DNA of 64,000 bases from positions 170,341 through 234,340 of the forward strand of contig NZ_NFIP01000003.1 of NCBI RefSeq assembly GCF_002161805.1, in the 5' to 3' direction. The DNA comes from Collinsella sp. An307. Lineage in GTDB: Bacteria > Actinomycetota > Coriobacteriia > Coriobacteriales > Coriobacteriaceae. This document shows, in pieces, positions 17,787 to 28,186 of this stretch; position 1 is the first letter of the stretch; the number at the start of each line of letters is the position of its first letter. The notes beneath the pieces are model-generated. The model searched no databases. It was given only the letters and a program-made list of their open reading frames with translations, and was not told where the DNA came from. The position numbers were made by a program, and so were the translations under genes.

Positions 17787-19184
17787 CTATGCGTTTGAGG
17801 AATCGGCTTCGATTTTTGGCTCGTCCTCTTCCGGATACATCTTCTTCCTCCTGATGAAGTAGGCGCCACCCAGATAGGCCGTCATAAGGACCCAGGTCAC
17901 CGGCTCGGTGGCGCAGGTACCAATGTAGCCCCAGACGGGGATGAGGAAGCTTGCGGCGAGGAACTTCATGGCGAGCTCCACGCAGCTGGATATCACGGGT
18001 GCCGCCTTGTAGCCCATGGACTGCATGGCGGTGCGCAGGCACAAAAGAACGCCCAGCACGGCAAAGAATGGCAGGCTGAAGTGGATGGCGAGCGTGCCGC
18101 CCTCGATGATGCCCGCGCTTTGCGTGCCGGTGATGAGGCGGACCATAAACTCGCCCACGGCAAAGCCGAGCGCGCAGGCTATGAGGCCCCAGATAATCTC
18201 GAGCACAAGGGCGATGCGCAGCCCTTGGCGGATACGGTCGTAGCGACGCGCGCCCCAGTTTTGCGAGACAAAGGTCGAGGCGGCGGCCGCAAGCGTGCCC
18301 GAGGGCGTCATGAACGCCTCGATGATCTTGCGGGCGGCGGCGTAGGCGGCGATGAGCGTCTCGCCGAGCGCGTTGTTGGCGCGCTGGAAGATGAGCGTGC
18401 CCACGTTGACCACGCAGAGCATGAGCGCCATGGCAAAGCCCGAGCTCAGAAGCTCCGGCCAGAGCTTCTGCGAGGCGCGCCAGTCGCCGCGTTCGGGCAG
18501 GATCGCCTGGTACTTGCGCAGCAGCGTACCGCCGCAGAGCACCGCCGAGAGCGCCTGGGCAAGGACGGTGCCAAGCGCCGTTCCCACCACGCCAAGGCCG
18601 AGTACGATGATAAAGAAGAGGTCGAGGGCGATGTTCACGAGGCTCGACACCACAAGCACGTAGAGCGGCGTGCGGCTGTTGCCCACCGCGCGCAGAATGC
18701 TCGAGAACATGTTGTAGCCCACCGTGGTGAAGAGCCCCAAGCTCAAGATGAGCATGTAGGCAAAGGACTGCTCAAAGATGCCCTCGGGGATGTTCATGAA
18801 GTGGAGCATCGGCGTGAGGAAGATGACCGAGAGCGTTGTGGCGATCACCACGAGTGCTCCGTTTAGGATGAGCATGCCGGCGATGGAGCGGCGCAGACGC
18901 TTCTCGTTATGCGAGCCAAACGCCTGGGTGACGGGGATGGCAAAGCCGTTGTTCATGCTGATGACAAGGCTCATGAGCAGGTTATAGAGGGCAGACACCG
19001 CGCCCACGGCAGAGATGGCGTCGTCGCCGACGAAGTAACCCATCTCCATGGTGTCGATCATGGTGTACACCTGCTGGAAGAGGTTGCCGATGAGCATGGG
19101 CATGGCAAAGGCGATGAGCAGCTTTAAGGGATCGCCGACGGTCATGTCTTGCATGCGCGCGGATGCTTTCTTGGCGGTCTTCAT
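17787..19184 (-). CDS. MATE family multidrug/sodium antiporter
   Basis: 465 residues with about twelve membrane segments in two repeats. The MATE family entry LLIAFAMPMLIGNLFQQVYTMIDTM (residues 22-46) is typical of the DinF/VmrA-type branch, and the mid-protein repeat GALAAAASTFVSQNWGARRYDRI is its second-half counterpart. These proteins export cationic drugs or metabolites using Na+ or H+. ATG 19184 has only a weak AGGAT upstream; Met14 is a possible alternative. The acidic tail is cytoplasmic. Specificity unknown. Confidence 0.9.
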   Translation of the reverse strand: MKTAKKASARMQDMTVGDPLKLLIAFAMPMLIGNLFQQVYTMIDTMEMGYFVGDDAISAVGAVSALYNLLMSLVISMNNGFAIPVTQAFGSHNEKRLRRSIAGMLILNGALVVIATTLSVIFLTPMLHFMNIPEGIFEQSFAYMLILSLGLFTTVGYNMFSSILRAVGNSRTPLYVLVVSSLVNIALDLFFIIVLGLGVVGTALGTVLAQALSAVLCGGTLLRKYQAILPERGDWRASQKLWPELLSSGFAMALMLCVVNVGTLIFQRANNALGETLIAAYAAARKIIEAFMTPSGTLAAAASTFVSQNWGARRYDRIRQGLRIALVLEIIWGLIACALGFAVGEFMVRLITGTQSAGIIEGGTLAIHFSLPFFAVLGVLLCLRTAMQSMGYKAAPVISSCVELAMKFLAASFLIPVWGYIGTCATEPVTWVLMTAYLGGAYFIRRKKMYPEEDEPKIEADSSNA

Positions 19185-19635
19185 GGGCGAGATCCTATCT
19201 AGCGATGCTCGAGGTGTTTGCCGGCGGGGAGGGTGCCCTCCGAGCCCTCTTGACGCCTCGAGTGGGTGATATGTGAACTGGGATGGACGGCTCGGTGTCT
19301 GCGTTGCACCTGCCCCGCGCATCCGTGTCGCCCCGACTGTTATACCGCAAACACCGCTTCGGTGGGGCGTTAAACGAAAAGCTGGTGCAGCAGCACCGTT
19401 GGCGCAAAAACCCGTCCCATGAGTTTATAAGTGCTTTTTTTTTCAGGTATTTTATAGGTGAGATACTGGAGCCAGGAGAGGAGTTCGTCCGCAGCCAATA
19501 CGTTCCGTTTCGCTTTTGCCTTGCGCTCATGAAACGCTCGTCGCTCACACTCGACATAGGACTTAACCGTATGGCTGCTGCTCAAGATAGCTTTTACCTT
19601 ATGAGTTGTCTCATATCCCCGTCTGCTTCGGTTTT
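19185..19635. other. Gene-poor, AT-richer stretch at the left edge of the accessory region
   Basis: No frame here has a convincing start, ribosome binding site or recognisable protein. A T9 run (after 19433) and a drop in GC mark the change from core to accessory DNA. A short minus-strand frame (19370-19672) rich in Lys/Arg runs into the nuclease gene but has no homology that I recognise. The left boundary of the mobile segment probably lies here. Confidence 0.5.
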
Positions 19636-20574
19636 TTATTCGAGCAGATAGCGCGTTCTCAAAGTTGAGCACGTCGCATCGTCAAGCTCCAGCATCGAGA
19701 TGAGGTCTGAGACCGGGGTATAGACGATAGTAAATGCGAAGCCCGGCGTTTCGAATAGCGGGGCGAGCGTCTCGCTCGCTGCCTCGACGAAGTGCTGAGC
19801 GCCCCGGTGCTCCTCGGCAAGCGCGTCTTCATAATGGTTGCGTGAGAGGGGAGAGAGCTGCCTCAGGGCGCTCTCGCCCATTTCATGCACCACGTTCACC
19901 AGATCAACGCGGCGTTGTGTGGGCCATCTGCCCTCGGCGCACGAGTTGTAGAGCGCAAGCGCGTGCTTGAACATCTGTGCAGCGTCGTAGCGTGCGAGAA
20001 GCGGCAGGCCGTTCTGATCGAAGAGCGTGTCAGCGAGGTTGAGAAACGCATTTGCGGTGCGCTCGTCGCGATACGTCTCTCGTTTGCGGTATGCGCTCTT
20101 AAGTACGCCCGGTTTGCCGAGAAGCCATTCGAGCATCTTCATTTCACAGGCGATGACGTGGTCCTTATTGACGAGCATGGCATCAAGGTTGGCGGGGAGG
20201 CCACTGGCACGCGTGGGGAGTTGCACCTCGTAGGAAACCTCGTAGCTCTCCCGTGAGTTGCTCCAGAGAACGTTTACAGGTCCATTGCCGAGCAGGTTGA
20301 ACGTCATTGCCGAGGAAGATCGCAGGGCGCGCATCTTGTCGTCCAACTCGGATCCGCTGCCACGGCGGTACTCCTCAATGTGGCGGACGTCCATGGAGCG
20401 GATGAGATTGTCCTCAAGTCGCGCCACGTAAAACTGACGTGCCGAGAAGGAAGATCCGATGTCGTGGACCTCAAAGTCATCCCTCTCGCTGGCGGCAAGG
20501 TACCCTGACTTCAGCAGCGAAAGAATCTCATATGAGAAGGTATCCAACGCTTGCCTTTCGTTCTCGCGTGTCAT
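19636..20574 (-). CDS. Putative PD-(D/E)xK nuclease (PGN_0703-like), defence cassette gene 2
   Basis: 312 residues. Residues 85-150 carry a nuclease-like core: SSSAMTFNLLGNG, then YEVSYEVQLP, then NLDAMLVNKDHVIACEMKMLEW with D131 and E144-x-K146 as the catalytic pattern. This order resembles the PGN_0703 family of putative restriction endonucleases; the assignment is from memory of the pattern. The gene lies 24 bases after the DUF262 gene and is read with it. GC is visibly lower than in the core genome. No clear ribosome binding site stands before ATG 20574, so translation may depend on the upstream gene. It probably cuts foreign DNA together with, or regulated by, its partner. Confidence 0.6.
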   Translation of the reverse strand: MTRENERQALDTFSYEILSLLKSGYLAASERDDFEVHDIGSSFSARQFYVARLEDNLIRSMDVRHIEEYRRGSGSELDDKMRALRSSSAMTFNLLGNGPVNVLWSNSRESYEVSYEVQLPTRASGLPANLDAMLVNKDHVIACEMKMLEWLLGKPGVLKSAYRKRETYRDERTANAFLNLADTLFDQNGLPLLARYDAAQMFKHALALYNSCAEGRWPTQRRVDLVNVVHEMGESALRQLSPLSRNHYEDALAEEHRGAQHFVEAASETLAPLFETPGFAFTIVYTPVSDLISMLELDDATCSTLRTRYLLE

Positions 20575-20598
20575 AGGACGGCAGATGCGCTAACGAGC

Positions 20599-23562
20599 CT
20601 AAACGTCCCCAACGTAGCGGATAGGATTCTGGCCGTGGCTCAATTCGCTGGCAAAGCGGCCCTTGTAGCGATTGCGTATTTCATCGCTAGCGATCTTGCC
20701 CACAAACAAGTAGCGGCCGTCTTCCGGTAGAAGACCGTCGCCCTGCTCTTTGGCCTCCTCGGCGTTGAGCCATTTATCTACGCGATAAACCTCAACAACG
20801 CGCCCGTTGCAAACGCCTAGCGCAAGATGGATGGCGCTAACTCGGTTAGGGGAAACCTTCCAGCAGCATCGTATGCGGTCGTAAAGCTCGGATTCGGACA
20901 TACTAGAGGGGTCGACACCAGTTATCTTGATCAGGACAGCCGGCTCGTCAAAATCAGTCTCGCAAAGCTGCTGCTCATGGTTAGACACTGCTGAATCGTC
21001 TTTCTGGTATGTACCGGTATCACCGTTGGTGCCTGCGCCCCCTGAATTATCGTTCGATGTGGTGCGAAGCATGTCGGCTACGACGTGCAGCCTCAGCATA
21101 GCGGCGACAAGCCACTCGTAGAGCGCATCCCAATGCTCCGAAGCGAGGTCGGCTTTAAGTTCGATTAGCAGTTCTCGTGAGGCGCTGCTCGGCGACCGCC
21201 ACTCGACGGTGCCGTCGATGCCGTGAAGCTTTGCCTCAACTTCATTTCGGCGTGCTTGAAGGCTCTTGTAAAGCGTGATGCTGGTAAACCAAATGCCTGC
21301 GCCGACCCATCCGTCTCTTGGGGCAAAATACGCTGTCGCATGGGCGTCGCGCATGCCCAGTCCAAATGTGGCGTACCACTCGTTGTTCTCAACCCTATTG
21401 GAGGGATCGCTATACGCGATGACAAAATCCTGCCGCTCTGCACAATAGTCGTAGAAACCGCTCCAGAATGCCGCTTTGAGGCTGGGGCCCTCAACATGCT
21501 TAAGATACTCGGAGCGCTTGTCAGAGAGCAGCGGACCGTCTTCTCCTATGTGCCAGTACTTCCATCCGTTGATTGAAACCTGCGCGCCTGTCACAAGCTC
21601 CTTTGCGTGTGTTGCCGCACGGGAGGGGCTTGTGAAGACCTCTCCGTTGGCAAGACGGATACCGTAGTCTTCGGAGATTTCGGCTTCAAGGAGTGTTCCC
21701 GTCTCATGGGCAAAGAGCTTGGTTCCTGGAGCGATGTGCGTCATGGCGCAAACCGTCCGGAACGTCACAGCTCGCATGGCAGCTTGGGGCTTCTTCTTAC
21801 TAGGTTTGTAACGTGCGAGGACGGTAGAATCGAGCTTGGGGCACGGCCAGACCTCGAGCGCGCGCTTCGCCAACTGCTCGGCGCGGTTGCGAATGGTCGC
21901 CTCATTCCAAACGTTGGTGTGATGTAGTGCTTGGGAAAGCATCAGATAGTCTTTATTAAAGCCGCCTTTGAGGTGCGCCTTCTTTACCTCAAACGGAGCA
22001 TCGGAGAGTTCAGGGTTGTAGGCTGTGAGTGTGAGGTTGCCGAGCGTGTTGATGAGCTCGTCATAGACGCGCTCGCAGTCATCGCCGAGCATTGTGCGCC
22101 ACGCAGGGCTGTTGAGCGCATTTTGCGGCATGATGTGTTCGATGGAAAAGTTGCCACCAGAGAAATCCAGCGGGTCCTTCGTGTGGTAACTGTTTTCCAA
22201 GGTGGTGAGAAGATAGAACCTTCGCTTGAATGCGTAGCAGTCGCGTGTTTTGAGCGCTCGCTCAAATTCGGCATCATCCGGCATCCTTCGTGCGGTGCCT
22301 TCTTCGCCCAGAAGAATTGCCTCAAATGCCTCACGGATGTTGCCGCCGTCATCGCGCACGGTTGCAAGACGGGCGATAACAGAAGAGAAGAACTTGTTCA
22401 GACTATTGGTCGCCGCATCGCACACGGTACGCCGGAAGAGATAGCTCTCCGTTGTTCTCAATATGGAGATAAAATCGTCACGCGAGAGAGCCTTGTCATG
22501 GTAGGCCTCGAAAAGTGACATGAGCAAGGGGTTGACTACCGAGACGTCGAGCACCTGGATCCGCACAAACAGGGTGCGGAGTGCCTTGTCCTCACAGGCG
22601 CCGGCGGTGATGCACGCGTAGTGTCCGGCGTAGCGACGGATGTCCTTGAGCAGGATAGCCATCTGGCCCGGCTTGTCGTAGCCGTTATCCGCAACGTGGC
22701 GTTTGAATAGGCGGTACACATCACGTGTGGCGATAGTGGACGGGGCATTGATGACCGTCAGCCAGTTGCGGAGGAACTCATCGAAGACCTCGTCGTAGCT
22801 GTCAGCGCCAAGCGTTTCTTCAATCTTGCGCCAATAGTTGGCATAGAGCTTTTCCTGTTCGTCCATGGGAAGGCCCATGAGTACGAAATTGCGCACCAGG
22901 TCCGCGGTGGAAAGGTCCTTGCCGGTGGAGTTCATCGACTCAAAAATGAGCTGAGGGTTGTCCTGCCCCTGCTTGAGCCCAATCGCCACAATCTCAAGTC
23001 GCTGGATGCCATCCCAGATCACGTTGGGATCATCGATTTTGCTCAGCCAGGTGCGGAAGAGCTCAAGGTTGTTGATGATGCGATGGGATCCTTCAAGTAT
23101 TTCGACATTAGGGTCCTCAAGATGGTCGAGAACCGACCGCAGGGTCTGTTCATCGCCTTGCGAGAGGGAGAGCCGGTAATGGTCGTCGCCCTTCTTGTAC
23201 TTCAGGATGAGATAACCGCTATCAATAATCTCGTCGTACGAGACATGCGTGAGCCTCTCGGGGCGTGTTTTGGCATATTCTGCCAAGGCCACGATGAGCA
23301 GACTGAGTGTGGTGATGCGCTGCTGGCCGTCAATGACGAGGAGCTTATTTACCCCGGATATGCTGAATTCATCACCCAGCACCATAACTACGGAGCCGGT
23401 GAAATGCGTGCCGGTTTGACGACGGCCGATGGCGACGATGTCGTCCCAGAGCTGCCGGCACTGCTCCTCGTCCCAGGAGTAAGGACGCTGGTAGACAGGA
23501 ATGACCATTCGCTGGTTAGCAGAGGTGAGCAAGCTGACGATTGATTGCGGCGCAGCATTCAT
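20599..23562 (-). CDS. DUF262 / DUF1524 HNH nuclease with RAMA-like and DUF4268 domains (GmrSD-like), defence cassette gene 1
   Basis: 987 residues. The N-terminal DUF262 has IPVYQRPYSW (21-30) and the NTP-handling DGQQR (78-82). A DUF1524 HNH nuclease has IEHIMPQ (474-480) and NTLGNLTL (505-512). Residues about 610-672 (GTKLFAHETGTLLEAEI to NGWKYW) look like a RAMA domain, and about 695-832 like DUF4268. A linker (833-872) leads to a C-terminal domain (873-987) ending in RYLFVGKIA and RYKGRF. DUF262 plus DUF1524 is the make-up of GmrSD-type IV restriction enzymes, which destroy glucosylated or otherwise modified phage DNA. ATG 23562 has GGAG upstream. GC is about half over sampled stretches, against two thirds in the core. 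Confidence 0.85.
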   Translation of the reverse strand: MNAAPQSIVSLLTSANQRMVIPVYQRPYSWDEEQCRQLWDDIVAIGRRQTGTHFTGSVVMVLGDEFSISGVNKLLVIDGQQRITTLSLLIVALAEYAKTRPERLTHVSYDEIIDSGYLILKYKKGDDHYRLSLSQGDEQTLRSVLDHLEDPNVEILEGSHRIINNLELFRTWLSKIDDPNVIWDGIQRLEIVAIGLKQGQDNPQLIFESMNSTGKDLSTADLVRNFVLMGLPMDEQEKLYANYWRKIEETLGADSYDEVFDEFLRNWLTVINAPSTIATRDVYRLFKRHVADNGYDKPGQMAILLKDIRRYAGHYACITAGACEDKALRTLFVRIQVLDVSVVNPLLMSLFEAYHDKALSRDDFISILRTTESYLFRRTVCDAATNSLNKFFSSVIARLATVRDDGGNIREAFEAILLGEEGTARRMPDDAEFERALKTRDCYAFKRRFYLLTTLENSYHTKDPLDFSGGNFSIEHIMPQNALNSPAWRTMLGDDCERVYDELINTLGNLTLTAYNPELSDAPFEVKKAHLKGGFNKDYLMLSQALHHTNVWNEATIRNRAEQLAKRALEVWPCPKLDSTVLARYKPSKKKPQAAMRAVTFRTVCAMTHIAPGTKLFAHETGTLLEAEISEDYGIRLANGEVFTSPSRAATHAKELVTGAQVSINGWKYWHIGEDGPLLSDKRSEYLKHVEGPSLKAAFWSGFYDYCAERQDFVIAYSDPSNRVENNEWYATFGLGMRDAHATAYFAPRDGWVGAGIWFTSITLYKSLQARRNEVEAKLHGIDGTVEWRSPSSASRELLIELKADLASEHWDALYEWLVAAMLRLHVVADMLRTTSNDNSGGAGTNGDTGTYQKDDSAVSNHEQQLCETDFDEPAVLIKITGVDPSSMSESELYDRIRCCWKVSPNRVSAIHLALGVCNGRVVEVYRVDKWLNAEEAKEQGDGLLPEDGRYLFVGKIASDEIRNRYKGRFASELSHGQNPIRYVGDV

Positions 23563-23683
23563 GGCGGACTCCGAACGACAAAGTGAGGAATGAAATCATT
23601 CTACTCGATGGCGCGGACTTTTCTTTTAGCTGTAGGCTAGGCGCTGACGCCATCCGGCTTCCATCGCGACTATTCGGTAGATT

Positions 23684-23935
23684 GCGACGGTCGCGGTCGT
23701 AGTTGAACGCCTTGGTCTCGAACTCGTAGGTGATCGACCCCGTCTTGTAGCCCACGTTGCGCGTGCAGTCGCCGAGGCCCGTCACCTCGATCTTGGGGAC
23801 CATGATCTCCTTGGCGTTGCGCCCCGCGCGCGCCATGCGGCGGGGGCTGTTCAGGCACGTCGAGCACGCGGCCCTCTTGTAGACCTCGTCCAGGACGGCC
23901 GTGTAGTTCTTGGTGTACGCGATGCTGTTTGCCAT
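23684..23935 (-). pseudogene. Truncated phage major capsid protein, N-terminus only
   Basis: About 84 codons remain: MANSIAYTKNYTAVLDEVYKRAA, CLNSPRRMARAGRNAKEIMVPK, then GYKTGSITYEFETKAFNYDRDR. This is the N-terminal arm of a siphophage capsid family in which about 300 residues are expected. After DRDR (near base 23684) the frame runs into unrelated, lower-GC sequence that leads to the defence gene promoter. The junction therefore marks where the cassette replaced the rest of the head and tail genes. It follows the scaffold gene by three bases in normal phage order. Confidence 0.72.
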
Positions 23936-23938
23936 CTG

Positions 23939-24475
23939 CTACTCCTCGCTCTCGGGAAGGCCGGCGATCTTGCGCCAGCGGCTCATCTGCGTGGACGCGT
24001 CGGCCCCGGCGGCGCCCGCGCTCGGGAGGCCCGTCGCGCCGGTCGGCGCCGGGGCAGCGGGTGCCGAGAAGAGCCAGGGCTCCGCGGCCTTGAGCTTCTC
24101 GACGTCGTTGTCGTGGTCGGGCAGGAGCGCGCGGGCGGCCTTGACGTTGCGCGCGCCCGCGAGCTGCAGCTCGAAGCCGACGCGCTCCTCGTCGCCCTTT
24201 CGGCGCAGCTCGTCCATCTTCTTGCGCAGGGCCTCCGCGCCCTCGGCGGTCTTGGCCACCTCCGCGATCTCGCCCTCGAGCTCCGCGATGCGCGCGTCGC
24301 GCTCCGCGAGCGCTGCCTCGTAGTCCTCGCGCGCCTGGGCGGCCGCGTCGCCGTCCGCGCCGATTGCGCCCTGGAGCCCCGCCGTCACCGCCGCCTGCGC
24401 CGCCTGGTCGACCTGCGCCTGCGGCTCACCCGCGACCTGCGCCTGCGCGGCCGCGCCATCGTTCCCGTCACCCAT
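23939..24475 (-). CDS. Phage scaffolding protein (DUF4355-like)
   Basis: 178 residues, acidic and Ala/Gln-rich at the start, then a long coiled coil (about 50-112: ALAERDARIAELEGEIAEV, KKMDELRRKGDEERVGFEL). It continues into ARNVKAARALLPDHDNDVEKLKAAEPWLF and a short basic end SRWRKIAGLP. This is the layout of siphophage scaffold proteins that guide capsid assembly, and its place just before a capsid gene agrees. ATG 24475 follows a hairpin whose 3' arm contains the likely ribosome binding site. Without a full capsid gene it cannot serve assembly. Confidence 0.75.
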   Translation of the reverse strand: MGDGNDGAAAQAQVAGEPQAQVDQAAQAAVTAGLQGAIGADGDAAAQAREDYEAALAERDARIAELEGEIAEVAKTAEGAEALRKKMDELRRKGDEERVGFELQLAGARNVKAARALLPDHDNDVEKLKAAEPWLFSAPAAPAPTGATGLPSAGAAGADASTQMSRWRKIAGLPESEE

Positions 24476-24478
24476 AGA

Positions 24479-24508
24479 AAAGCCCGCCTTTCTCTCCGGG
24501 CGGGCAGA
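24479..24508 (-). terminator. Hairpin with T-run just before the scaffold start
   Basis: Read on the minus strand, GCCCGCC pairs with GGCGGGC and is followed by TTTTCT and then the scaffold ATG. It may end transcription from upstream phage genes or hide the scaffold ribosome binding site; either would tune head-protein ratios. It marks retained phage sequence at the edge of the inserted regulator-adhesin cargo. Confidence 0.6.
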
Positions 24509-24644: not shown

Positions 24645-25859
24645 ATGGGCTGGATGACGGCGGCGGAGGCCGCGAGGGAGTGGGGCGTCACGCCCCGGCG
24701 CGTGCAGATCCTCTGCGCGGAGGGGCGCGTCACGGGCGCCGAGCGCTTCGGCCGCGCCTGGCGCATCCCCGAGGGCGCGCCCAAGCCGGCCGACCCGCGC
24801 CGCGCGGGCGCGCCGGCCACGCCAACGTCCGCGGCGGGCGCCGAAGACGCCGCCCGCGCGCCCCTGTCCCTCGGCGCCCTCATGCCGCTCATGGCGACGC
24901 CGTTCGCCCCGGGGCGGGCGGAGGAGGCTGCCGCGTCCCTCCCCGAGGGGGCGCCGCGCGACATCGCCCGGGCCGAGCTCGCCTACTTCGCCGGCCGCGC
25001 CGAGGACGCCGCGGCGGCCGCAGAGCCCTACCTCGGCCACGGTGACCCGGGCGCCCGCCTGTCCGCCTGCCTGATCTGCGCCTACGCCAACCTGTCGCTC
25101 GGCCGCATCGACGCCGCGCGGCGGTCGCTCGAGGCGGCGCGCGGCGCCCTCTCCGGCGCGCCCGCCGACCCGCGCCTCGCCGCCGCCGGGGTCTTCGTCG
25201 CGCACGCGGCGAGCGTGCTGCTGCACCTGCCCGCGCCGGAGGCCGCGCAACCGGCATCCGACCCGCTTCCCCTCCTGCCGCCCGGCCTCAGGCTCTTCGC
25301 CTGCTACGTGCGCGCGCACCGCCTCTACCTCGAGGGCTCCTACGAGCTGGCGTACGGGATGACGATCGGCGCCCTCGCCATGGCGGACGAGACCTACCCC
25401 ATACCGGCGATCTACCTGCACCTCGCCTCCGTCATGAGCCTCATGGCGCTCCGCCGCACCGACGAGGCGCGCCAGCACGTGCTCGCGGCGTGGGAGCTCG
25501 CCCGCCCGGACGGCCTCATCGAGCCCTTCGGCGAGCACCACGGGCTCCTCGGCGGCATGCTCGAGGCGGCAATCAAGCCCGCCTGGCCGGAGGACTTCCG
25601 CCGCATCATCGACATAACCTACCGCTTCTCCGCCGGATGGCGGCGCGTCCACAACCCCGCCACGGGCGACGACGTCGCCGACAACCTCACCACCACGGAG
25701 TTCGCGGCGTGCATGCTCGCGGCCCGCGACTGGACCAACGCCCAGATCGCGGAGCACCTGGGCGTCTCCGTGAACACGGTGAAGAGCTGCCTCTCCGCGT
25801 CCATGCGAAAGCTCGGCGTCTCGAGCAGGAGGGACCTCGCTCGCTTCATGCTCGCATGA
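24645..25859 (+). CDS. LuxR-type transcriptional regulator with N-terminal excisionase/MerR-like HTH
   Basis: 404 residues. The N-terminus (MTAAEAAREWGVTPRRVQILCAEGRV, then AWRIPEGAPKP) is an excisionase-like helix-turn-helix. The middle (about 75-330) is helical and TPR-like. The C-terminus is a LuxR HTH (TNAQIAEHLGVSVNTVKSCLSASMRKLGVSSRRDLARFML). Two DNA-binding ends in one regulator are unusual; similar architectures occur in Coriobacteriia. No sensor domain is recognisable, so the signal is unknown. GGAGGGG precedes ATG 24645. It is read against the phage genes and toward the adhesin 182 bases downstream, which it probably controls. Confidence 0.85.
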   Translation: MGWMTAAEAAREWGVTPRRVQILCAEGRVTGAERFGRAWRIPEGAPKPADPRRAGAPATPTSAAGAEDAARAPLSLGALMPLMATPFAPGRAEEAAASLPEGAPRDIARAELAYFAGRAEDAAAAAEPYLGHGDPGARLSACLICAYANLSLGRIDAARRSLEAARGALSGAPADPRLAAAGVFVAHAASVLLHLPAPEAAQPASDPLPLLPPGLRLFACYVRAHRLYLEGSYELAYGMTIGALAMADETYPIPAIYLHLASVMSLMALRRTDEARQHVLAAWELARPDGLIEPFGEHHGLLGGMLEAAIKPAWPEDFRRIIDITYRFSAGWRRVHNPATGDDVADNLTTTEFAACMLAARDWTNAQIAEHLGVSVNTVKSCLSASMRKLGVSSRRDLARFMLA

Positions 25860-25916
25860 GCCCACCACCCGTTTCTGCCCCTCGGCTGGGTGATGCGCTC
25901 CCGGCCGCGTGTTGGG

Positions 25917-25935
25917 ATAATGAAATCGCGATTAT
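25917..25935. promoter_or_regulatory. AT-rich dyad upstream of the adhesin gene
   Basis: ATAAT (25917-25921) mirrors ATTAT (25931-25935) around the palindrome AATCGCGATT. It is an AT island in DNA of more than 70% GC, about 105 bases before the adhesin start. It is a candidate operator or promoter for control by the neighbouring LuxR-type protein. Confidence 0.4.
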
Positions 25936-26041
25936 TCCGGCGTCGCTTCCGGTGGGCACGGCGTCCGCCGTGGCGCGGATGGCGGCACGCGGGCCCGCCG
26001 CCGGCGATGCGGCCCGATGCGCCGAGAGGGGAGCACGCGAT

Positions 26042-28186
26042 ATGACACCGAACGTCAGACGAAACGAGCAACTGGAAGTGGGCGGCGCACGGAGTCGGAA
26101 TCGGCTTGTCGCCGCGGCGCTGTCCCTGAGTCTGCTGCTCACGGCGCTCGTGGTCGCCGCCCTCGCGCTCCCCGCCACGGCGCTGGCGGCGGGAGAGCAC
26201 GACAGTCACAGCAACGGCTGGACGGAGTTGACGGCGGACACCACCACCCTATCCGGCGGCAGCTACTACCTGTTCGGCGATGTAGAGTACACCGGCACTG
26301 AGTCCATCACCGTCAGCGGTGAGGTGATCCTCTGCCTCAACGGCCAGAAGCTGGATCTGAAGGGGCAGCACATTTCCGTGGGCAGCGGCGCAAGTCTTAC
26401 CCTGTTCGACTGCTCCACCGGCGGTGTTCTCACCGGCGGTTCTGGCAGCAAAGGCGGCGGGGTGTATGTGGGCGGCGGCGGCACCTTTACAATGACCGGC
26501 GGCAGCATTGCCGGCAACACCGCCGAAAGCGGCGGCGGGGTGTATGTGGACGAAGGCGGCACCTTCACTATGGAAGACGGCAGCATCAACAACAACCAGG
26601 TCACCTCAGGTGGAGGTGGAGGGGTGATGGTTAACAAAGGCTCATTCACTCTATCCGGCGGCTCCATCACCGGCAACGCCACTAGCGACGCAACTTACGG
26701 TTACGGCGGCGGGGTGTGTCTATACGGCACCTTTTATCTGTCCGGTGATTCCATCATTCAAAACAATACGAAGGCTGGTGCCACCGACAACCTGTATTTA
26801 GGATGGAATACTATCAAAATCACCGGATCTCTGGGCGAAAACGCGCGCATTGGCGTGACCGCAGAAGGTGTCCCCCGCAGTTTCATCAGTGGGTGGAGCG
26901 ACTATATGGCGGGCGAAAACCCGGCGGACTACTTCTCCTCCGACGGTGACGCCTGGGACATTGGTCTGAACGCCGACGGGGATGTGGTGCTGGGCAGCCT
27001 GTGTACCATCATCACCCAGCCCGCAGATAAATCTGTGATCGAGGGCAAAACCGCCACCTTTACCGTGAACGCCACCGGCAGCGAGCCGTTGTCCTATCAG
27101 TGGCAGCAAAGCATCGATAACGGAAATAACTGGACAAATATTGCCAGCGCAAACGCAGCCGAATATACCACAGGGGAAACCACAATGGACATGAGCGGCA
27201 ACCAGTACCGTTGTGTTGTGACCGGAGACGGCGGCGCTGTCATAAGCGACCCCGCGACCCTCACAGTCGCGCACGCCCACAAACCTGCCAGCGATTGGTC
27301 GAGCGACGCGGACGGACACTGGCACGAGTGCGCGGCCTGCGGCGACAGGCTTGACTACGCCGGGCATATGCGCACCGTCCAGAACGAAAAGAAGGCCACC
27401 TGCACCGATGAGGGCTACACCGGCGACACGGTCTGCTCCGTCTGCGGCTACGTGATCGCAAAGGGCGAGACGATCCCCGCTGCCGGCCACGCATGGGGCG
27501 CCTGGGCCGCGACCGAGCCCGCCACGTGCACCGAGGACGGCCTCGAGGCACGCACCTGCGCCGCGTGCGGGAGGACGCAGACCCGGACCGTGCCTGCGTC
27601 CGGCCACAGCTTCACGAGCTACGCGTCCAACCATGACGCCACCTGCACCGAGGACGGCACCGAGACCGCGACCTGCGACAACGGCTGCGGCGCCACCCAC
27701 ACGCGCCCCGACGAGGGCTCGGCGCTCGGCCACGCCTGGGGCGAGCCCGCGTGGCGCTGGTCCGACGACGGCGAGGAGTTCGTCGCCTCGTTCGCCTGTG
27801 CTCGCGACGCCTCCCACACGCTCGAGCTGACGGCCAAGCCCACCGCGACGGTCGCCTCCGAGCCCATCTGCACCGAGCCCGGCACCACGCGCTACTACGC
27901 CGAGGTCGAGCTCGACGGCGTCACTTACGCCGCAGAGGCCACCGCGGCCGACATCCCCGCGCTCGACCACAGGTTCGAGGACGGCGTCTGCACCGTCTGC
28001 GGCGCTAAGGACGAGGGCTACGTCGCGCCCCAGCGGCCCGACCCGAGGCCGGAGCCGGAGCCGGTCGAGACCGACCCCGAGCTTCCCGCCACGGGCGACG
28101 CGACCGCCGCCGGCCTCCTCGGGGCGCTCGCATGCGCGGGTGCCGCCCTGGCGACCGGCGCTGCGCTGCGCAGGCGGAGCCGCTAG
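26042..28186 (+). CDS. LPxTG cell-wall-anchored surface protein with beta-helix and Ig-like domains
   Basis: 714 residues. A signal peptide (about 20-50, ending ATALAA) is followed by a right-handed beta-helix built of repeats such as GGGVYV and TFTMTGGSIAGNTA (about 80-230). Next is an Ig-like domain (about 325-405, PADKSVIEGKTATFTV to DPATLTV). Cysteine-paired modules follow (CAAC, CSVC, CAAC, CTVC, about 425-665). The end is a sorting signal: LPATG, hydrophobic span, RRRSR tail. Sortase would link it to peptidoglycan, so adhesion to host glycans or mucin is likely. The start ATG follows GAGGGGAG. The middle part is far lower in GC than both ends. Confidence 0.85.
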   Translation: MTPNVRRNEQLEVGGARSRNRLVAAALSLSLLLTALVVAALALPATALAAGEHDSHSNGWTELTADTTTLSGGSYYLFGDVEYTGTESITVSGEVILCLNGQKLDLKGQHISVGSGASLTLFDCSTGGVLTGGSGSKGGGVYVGGGGTFTMTGGSIAGNTAESGGGVYVDEGGTFTMEDGSINNNQVTSGGGGGVMVNKGSFTLSGGSITGNATSDATYGYGGGVCLYGTFYLSGDSIIQNNTKAGATDNLYLGWNTIKITGSLGENARIGVTAEGVPRSFISGWSDYMAGENPADYFSSDGDAWDIGLNADGDVVLGSLCTIITQPADKSVIEGKTATFTVNATGSEPLSYQWQQSIDNGNNWTNIASANAAEYTTGETTMDMSGNQYRCVVTGDGGAVISDPATLTVAHAHKPASDWSSDADGHWHECAACGDRLDYAGHMRTVQNEKKATCTDEGYTGDTVCSVCGYVIAKGETIPAAGHAWGAWAATEPATCTEDGLEARTCAACGRTQTRTVPASGHSFTSYASNHDATCTEDGTETATCDNGCGATHTRPDEGSALGHAWGEPAWRWSDDGEEFVASFACARDASHTLELTAKPTATVASEPICTEPGTTRYYAEVELDGVTYAAEATAADIPALDHRFEDGVCTVCGAKDEGYVAPQRPDPRPEPEPVETDPELPATGDATAAGLLGALACAGAALATGAALRRRSR

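Follow-up and report, generated by a model that had tools for sequence, protein, structure and literature searches.

A predicted single-chain GmrSD-type restriction enzyme with RAMA and CMoRE-type reader domains behind a phage remnant in Collinsella

Two neighbouring genes behind a broken phage head gene

The window (the 64,000-nucleotide stretch of the genome of Collinsella sp. An307 that was analysed) contains two adjacent genes on the (-) strand, which we call P1 (20599..23562, 987 aa) and P2 (19636..20574, 312 aa). Both are genuine ORFs and not chance ones, and their lengths, strand and 24-base gap are as an earlier, sequence-only reading of the window had stated. P1 is a predicted modification-dependent nuclease composed of (i) a GmrSD_N domain (DUF262, a ParB/Srx-like NTPase; residues 11-227, 22882..23532) with DGQQR at 78-82, (ii) a GmrSD_C domain (DUF1524, an HNH nuclease; residues 427-566, 21865..22284) with EHIMPQ at 475-480 and LGNLTL at 507-512, (iii) a RAMA domain, a putative modified-base reader (residues 585-690, 21493..21810), with NGWKYW at 665-670, (iv) a DUF4268 domain (residues 695-828, 21079..21480), for which we know of no function, and (v) a CMoRE-type cytosine-modification sensing domain (residues 865-985, 20608..20970) that is without a Pfam match. 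The first four score above the Pfam cut-offs (GmrSD_N, PF03235, 123 bits; GmrSD_C, PF07510, 86; RAMA, 60; DUF4268, 30) and the motifs are conserved among homologues, which bears out the domains and motifs named in the sequence-only reading. P1 thus has the features of the GmrSD family, i.e. a DUF262 domain with DGQQR and a DUF1524 domain with the HNH motifs (E/D)HxxPQ and (G/A)NL, and its best 25 PADLOC matches are to DUF262-type models (Orf5, HEC-06, mREase_IV, SspE). As for RAMA, its role as a modified-base reader is disputed, and the 6mA preference of the RAMA protein MPND was not confirmable (PMC11037411).

Directly upstream of P1, on the same strand, lies a truncated gene for a phage major head protein, of which ~81 native codons are left (23516..23935), preceded by a scaffold-like phage ORF (23942..24484; phrog_31118, of unknown function). 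Between the latter and the phage portal gene sit two further ORFs (window 24645-28186), one resembling a LuxR-type regulator and the other, a large one, resembling a surface protein, so that the prophage remnant looks rearranged.

A predicted cytosine-modification sensor at the C-terminus of P1

The sequence-only reading had noticed a C-terminal domain in P1 and left it unnamed, and residues 863-987 match nothing in Pfam or NCBIfam; the domain is indeed there, and it can now be given a name. When P1 was compared by phmmer with PDB sequences, two GIY-YIG domain proteins, 9u75 and 9u7u, were found (E 7e-7 and 3e-5), aligned over the C-terminal domain only. Both entries represent CMoRE (PD-T4-3), which is a type IV enzyme with a C-terminal domain that binds 5hm-dCTP (PMC12923530). 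A sensor profile built from 14 relatives matched the CMoRE entries at E 4.5e-13, Foldseek retrieved the same entries (E 6.9e-10, TM 0.70) with an AF2 model of the sensor (pLDDT 82), and VIA-align superposed this model on CMoRE with a Z of 13.6 and an rmsd of 2.2 A over 111 aligned residues at 30% identity, the next-best rows (YTH/ASCH readers, Z ~5) being far below. By profile comparison and modelled structure, the C-terminal domain of P1 is therefore homologous to the domain with which CMoRE/PD-T4-3 senses 5hmC and 5ghmC. In CMoRE, the contact reported for 5hmC is made by the main-chain O of Y127 (PMC12923530), whose counterpart in P1 lies at the beginning of the sensor model, where confidence is low. 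A GIYxY-YIG motif is present in every CMoRE system found by the authors of that study (PMC12923530). Since P1 is without a GIY-YIG nuclease domain according to Pfam, and its nuclease is that of GmrSD, it shares the CMoRE sensor and is not filed as a CMoRE system.

P1 as a probable type IV-like restriction enzyme with two readers

We are fairly confident that P1 by itself makes up the functional unit, as a predicted single-polypeptide, type IV-like and modification-dependent restriction enzyme with two reader modules, and that P2 is a separate gene. Sensing and cutting on one chain, as the sequence-only reading had proposed, agrees with what Pfam and the sensor homology suggest, namely a GmrSD-type nuclease fused to predicted modification-reader domains. 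The RAMA and CMoRE-type domains would recognise modified bases in incoming phage DNA, the target of the latter probably being hypermodified cytosine, the DUF262 domain would bind and hydrolyse NTP, leading to activation, and the HNH domain would then cut the DNA. The host genome has three methylase-type matches (two to PF02384, one to PF00145) and none to PF01555. Because the cell would be in danger of damaging itself if P1 responded to any 6mA or 5mC, hypermodified cytosine would fit better as its target than either of these marks in general.

The similarity of P1 to SspE, which is one of its nearest DUF262 relatives of solved structure (6jiv, E 3e-10) and senses modification before it nicks DNA (PMC10952713), brings up another scenario, in which P1, as an NTPase/nickase switched on by its sensor, would kill the infected cell or arrest it (abortive defence) rather than cut phage DNA selectively. 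We consider this unlikely, as SspE reads host phosphorothioate marks whereas P1 bears a CMoRE-type sensor, and modified phage DNA is cut directly by both CMoRE and GmrSD.

P2, probably a neighbour rather than a partner

P2 encodes a PD-(D/E)xK nuclease-like protein, which is probably an unlinked neighbour of P1. It matches Pfam REase-ARP (PF22558) above the cut-off (34 bits), a family on which no paper was found in the literature, and contains the motifs NLDAML at 129-134 (D131) and CEMK at 143-146 (E144, K146). In nine aligned homologues, E116, D131, E144, K146, E149 and Q200 are invariant. Comparison of its predicted model (pLDDT 92) by VIA gives mostly PD-(D/E)xK nucleases (FokI, N.BspD6I, XisH, McrC, EcoT38I, Can2) with Z values of at most 7.2, Foldseek with the same model gives nothing below 0.001, neither single-sequence nor profile searches of PDB sequences give a significant match, and PADLOC has no match for P2. 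At Z values this low, a PD-(D/E)xK fold is likely rather than proven; the sequence-only reading had called P2 a PD-(D/E)xK nuclease. The family is rare (10/398 genomes of the class), and a scan of genome contigs for P2 relatives gave a single locus.

That P1 and P2 make up one two-gene system, the other part of the sequence-only reading, is not supported by the comparison with other genomes: in those sampled, the two are never neighbours elsewhere, since the other P1 orthologues of full length, five in number, have no P2 downstream and no P1-like gene lies beside any other P2 homologue with an examined neighbourhood. On this neighbourhood evidence, a conserved P1-P2 pair was dropped. In the window, P2 lies in a variable region beside a MATE transporter gene. 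In G007, a genome of the same genus as the window, a P2 fragment adjoins this MATE gene too, but with another gene upstream of it, so that P2 was probably present at this site independently of P1. Just upstream of this P2 remnant is an ORF (L041:7447-9216) in which HNH-like and DGQHK-like segments can be seen by eye.

A two-gene defence, in which P1 would sense and cut modified DNA with P2 as a cooperating second nuclease, nevertheless has arguments in its favour: the two genes are on the same strand with a short gap, the PD-(D/E)xK signature is intact in P2, and one P2 homologue (L102, in G181) has a DUF262-like ORF, of a different type and recognised by eye, two genes away. It is quite improbable, however, in view of the neighbourhoods just described, of P2 homologues that can adjoin housekeeping genes (coaBC-nfo-like genes in G103, for example) and of the fact that no obvious Shine-Dalgarno sequence is seen ahead of P2. 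P2 is best read as a separate PD-(D/E)xK nuclease-like gene, a hotspot neighbour that is downstream of P1 by chance, although a recent or rare partnership may exist, P2 homologues being few. The region beside the conserved MATE gene is variable in several genomes of the genus (window 17787-19322; L041, L058, L059), some of which have remnants of a phage scaffold gene there while others have different genes.

Conservation and spread of P1

The complete P1 architecture is found in five more genomes (G078, G086, G340, G296 and G389), with intact motifs and ~70% identity, and these genomes with full-length orthologues are all of one genus, in a different family from that of the window. The window protein resembles the five orthologues most in the nuclease part (82-84% identity), and less in RAMA/DUF4268 (52-59%) and the sensor (55-59%). 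In an alignment of nine P1-type proteins, DGQQR (9/9), EHIMP, GNLT.TAYN and NGW.[YF]W are conserved, so that the RAMA and HNH residues on whose conservation the sequence-only reading had staked its proposal are kept in homologues. In closer P1 pairs, the nuclease parts have a dN/dS of 0.04-0.14, against 0.14-0.17 for the sensor and 0.13-0.42 for RAMA; some comparisons with the window are saturated and give no value. P1 is under purifying selection, hence a real gene, and these values indicate that every part is constrained, with the readers changing faster. Synonymous divergence between G078 and G086 is much higher in the sensor (pS 0.50) than in RAMA/DUF4268 (0.12-0.18), which suggests that the sensor segment has recombined.

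The head gene is broken at ~codon 81-94 just ahead of P1 in two bacterial families (window 23516-24484; L043, L046, L124, L128, L042). In G086, G034 and G340, the position of the junction differs by no more than a few codons; G078 retains a short remnant and G389 a related one. This broken-head-gene junction may be how P1 travels. A site-specific insertion hotspot in the head gene was considered and rejected, as most other truncated head genes break elsewhere. Because of these other breaks, and because the 3' half of the head gene was not found behind P1 in the loci examined, a single ancestral head-gene/P1 junction that then spread is the more likely, and simplest, account. P1 loci share a GGAG-like site and, upstream, a TAGAAT-like element whether or not they have the phage remnant, and the same short element ahead of P1 is retained in the orthologues that have none (G113, G296). 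That P1 might be a decaying passenger of a defective prophage, its function lost, could be argued from its place right behind a truncated head gene and from several relatives that are truncated or split, but is very hard to reconcile with a full-length ORF in which every motif is intact, with low dN/dS among orthologues and with these upstream elements kept whether or not the phage remnant is there.

The sensor outside P1

In plasmids and phages, most of the sensor carriers examined are LEM-3-like GIY-YIG proteins, among them one encoded by Serratia phage Moabite (L153:2614-3378), and three Coriobacteriia genomes have the sensor inside a 387-aa frame that is GIY-YIG-like by reading alone. Other arrangements exist. 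In an Arcobacter HNH endonuclease (L155:3965-4708), the sensor is N-terminal, ahead of the HNH domain; a 629-aa Pimelobacter protein (L157:3641-5530) has two tandem N-terminal sensors followed by a weak, below cut-off match to PDDEXK_4; and on pSYSA of Synechocystis PCC 6803 a GmrSD gene is followed, after 47 bases, by a stand-alone sensor gene of 129 aa. The product of this GmrSD gene is only 20% identical to P1, so the association between sensor and GmrSD may have arisen twice. Among relatives of P1 itself, the sensor comes after in-frame stop codons that end the P1 body in G251 and G316, and in G113 it is a separate ORF past two ORFs that resemble an MNT nucleotidyltransferase and a HEPN protein by eye (L044:9753-10937).

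With its occurrence on a plain HNH nuclease, on a possible PD-(D/E)xK protein and as a stand-alone gene behind GmrSD, the CMoRE-type sensor looks like a portable reader. A more ambitious proposal, to which we give an even chance, is that it would read hypermodified phage bases quite generally, as a portable module used on four or more types of nuclease (GIY-YIG, GmrSD/HNH, plain HNH and PD-(D/E)xK) or as a separate subunit, and that P1 would be a two-reader enzyme whose RAMA and CMoRE-type readers together make its selection of phage DNA broader or more precise.

This has several implications. The CMoRE sensor was presented in January 2026 as a distinct fold for which sequence and structure searches by its authors gave no homologue (PMC12923530), and it is now found on other nuclease types, which makes it a searchable module for overlooked modification-dependent restriction enzymes. 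The sensor homology also allows a prediction, open to testing, of the substrate of a GmrSD subfamily that is otherwise uncharacterised, while the weak structural similarity to YTH/ASCH readers provides a testable placement for the CMoRE fold.

Comparison with known systems

No description of the P1 architecture (GmrSD, RAMA and CMoRE-type sensor) was seen in the papers found. Like GmrSD, BrxU and Eco94GmrSD, P1 has a DUF262 domain with DGQQR and a DUF1524 HNH domain on one chain, and it differs from them by the added RAMA and CMoRE-type sensor; DUF262-DUF1524 proteins carrying DUF4268 have been noted previously (PMC4619093). SspE shares the DUF262 and DUF1524 architecture and works with SspABCD phosphorothioation, whereas P1 has extra reader domains, and neither Ssp nor Dnd genes were noticed next to it. 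RAMA-fusion endonucleases (RAMA-Mrr-NTPase, GIY-YIG-RAMA) join RAMA to a nuclease as P1 does, but their nuclease folds are others and a CMoRE-type sensor is not mentioned for them (PMC11037411). P2, for its part, belongs with REase-ARP by a match that is above the cut-off at 34 bits only and in which the PD-(D/E)xK residues are invariant. Finally, CMoRE (PD-T4-3, PMC12923530) has a C-terminal modification-sensing domain homologous to that of P1 (Z 13.6, 30% identity), but is a GIY-YIG cutter of ~260 aa, whereas P1 couples this sensor to an HNH/GmrSD body together with RAMA and DUF4268.
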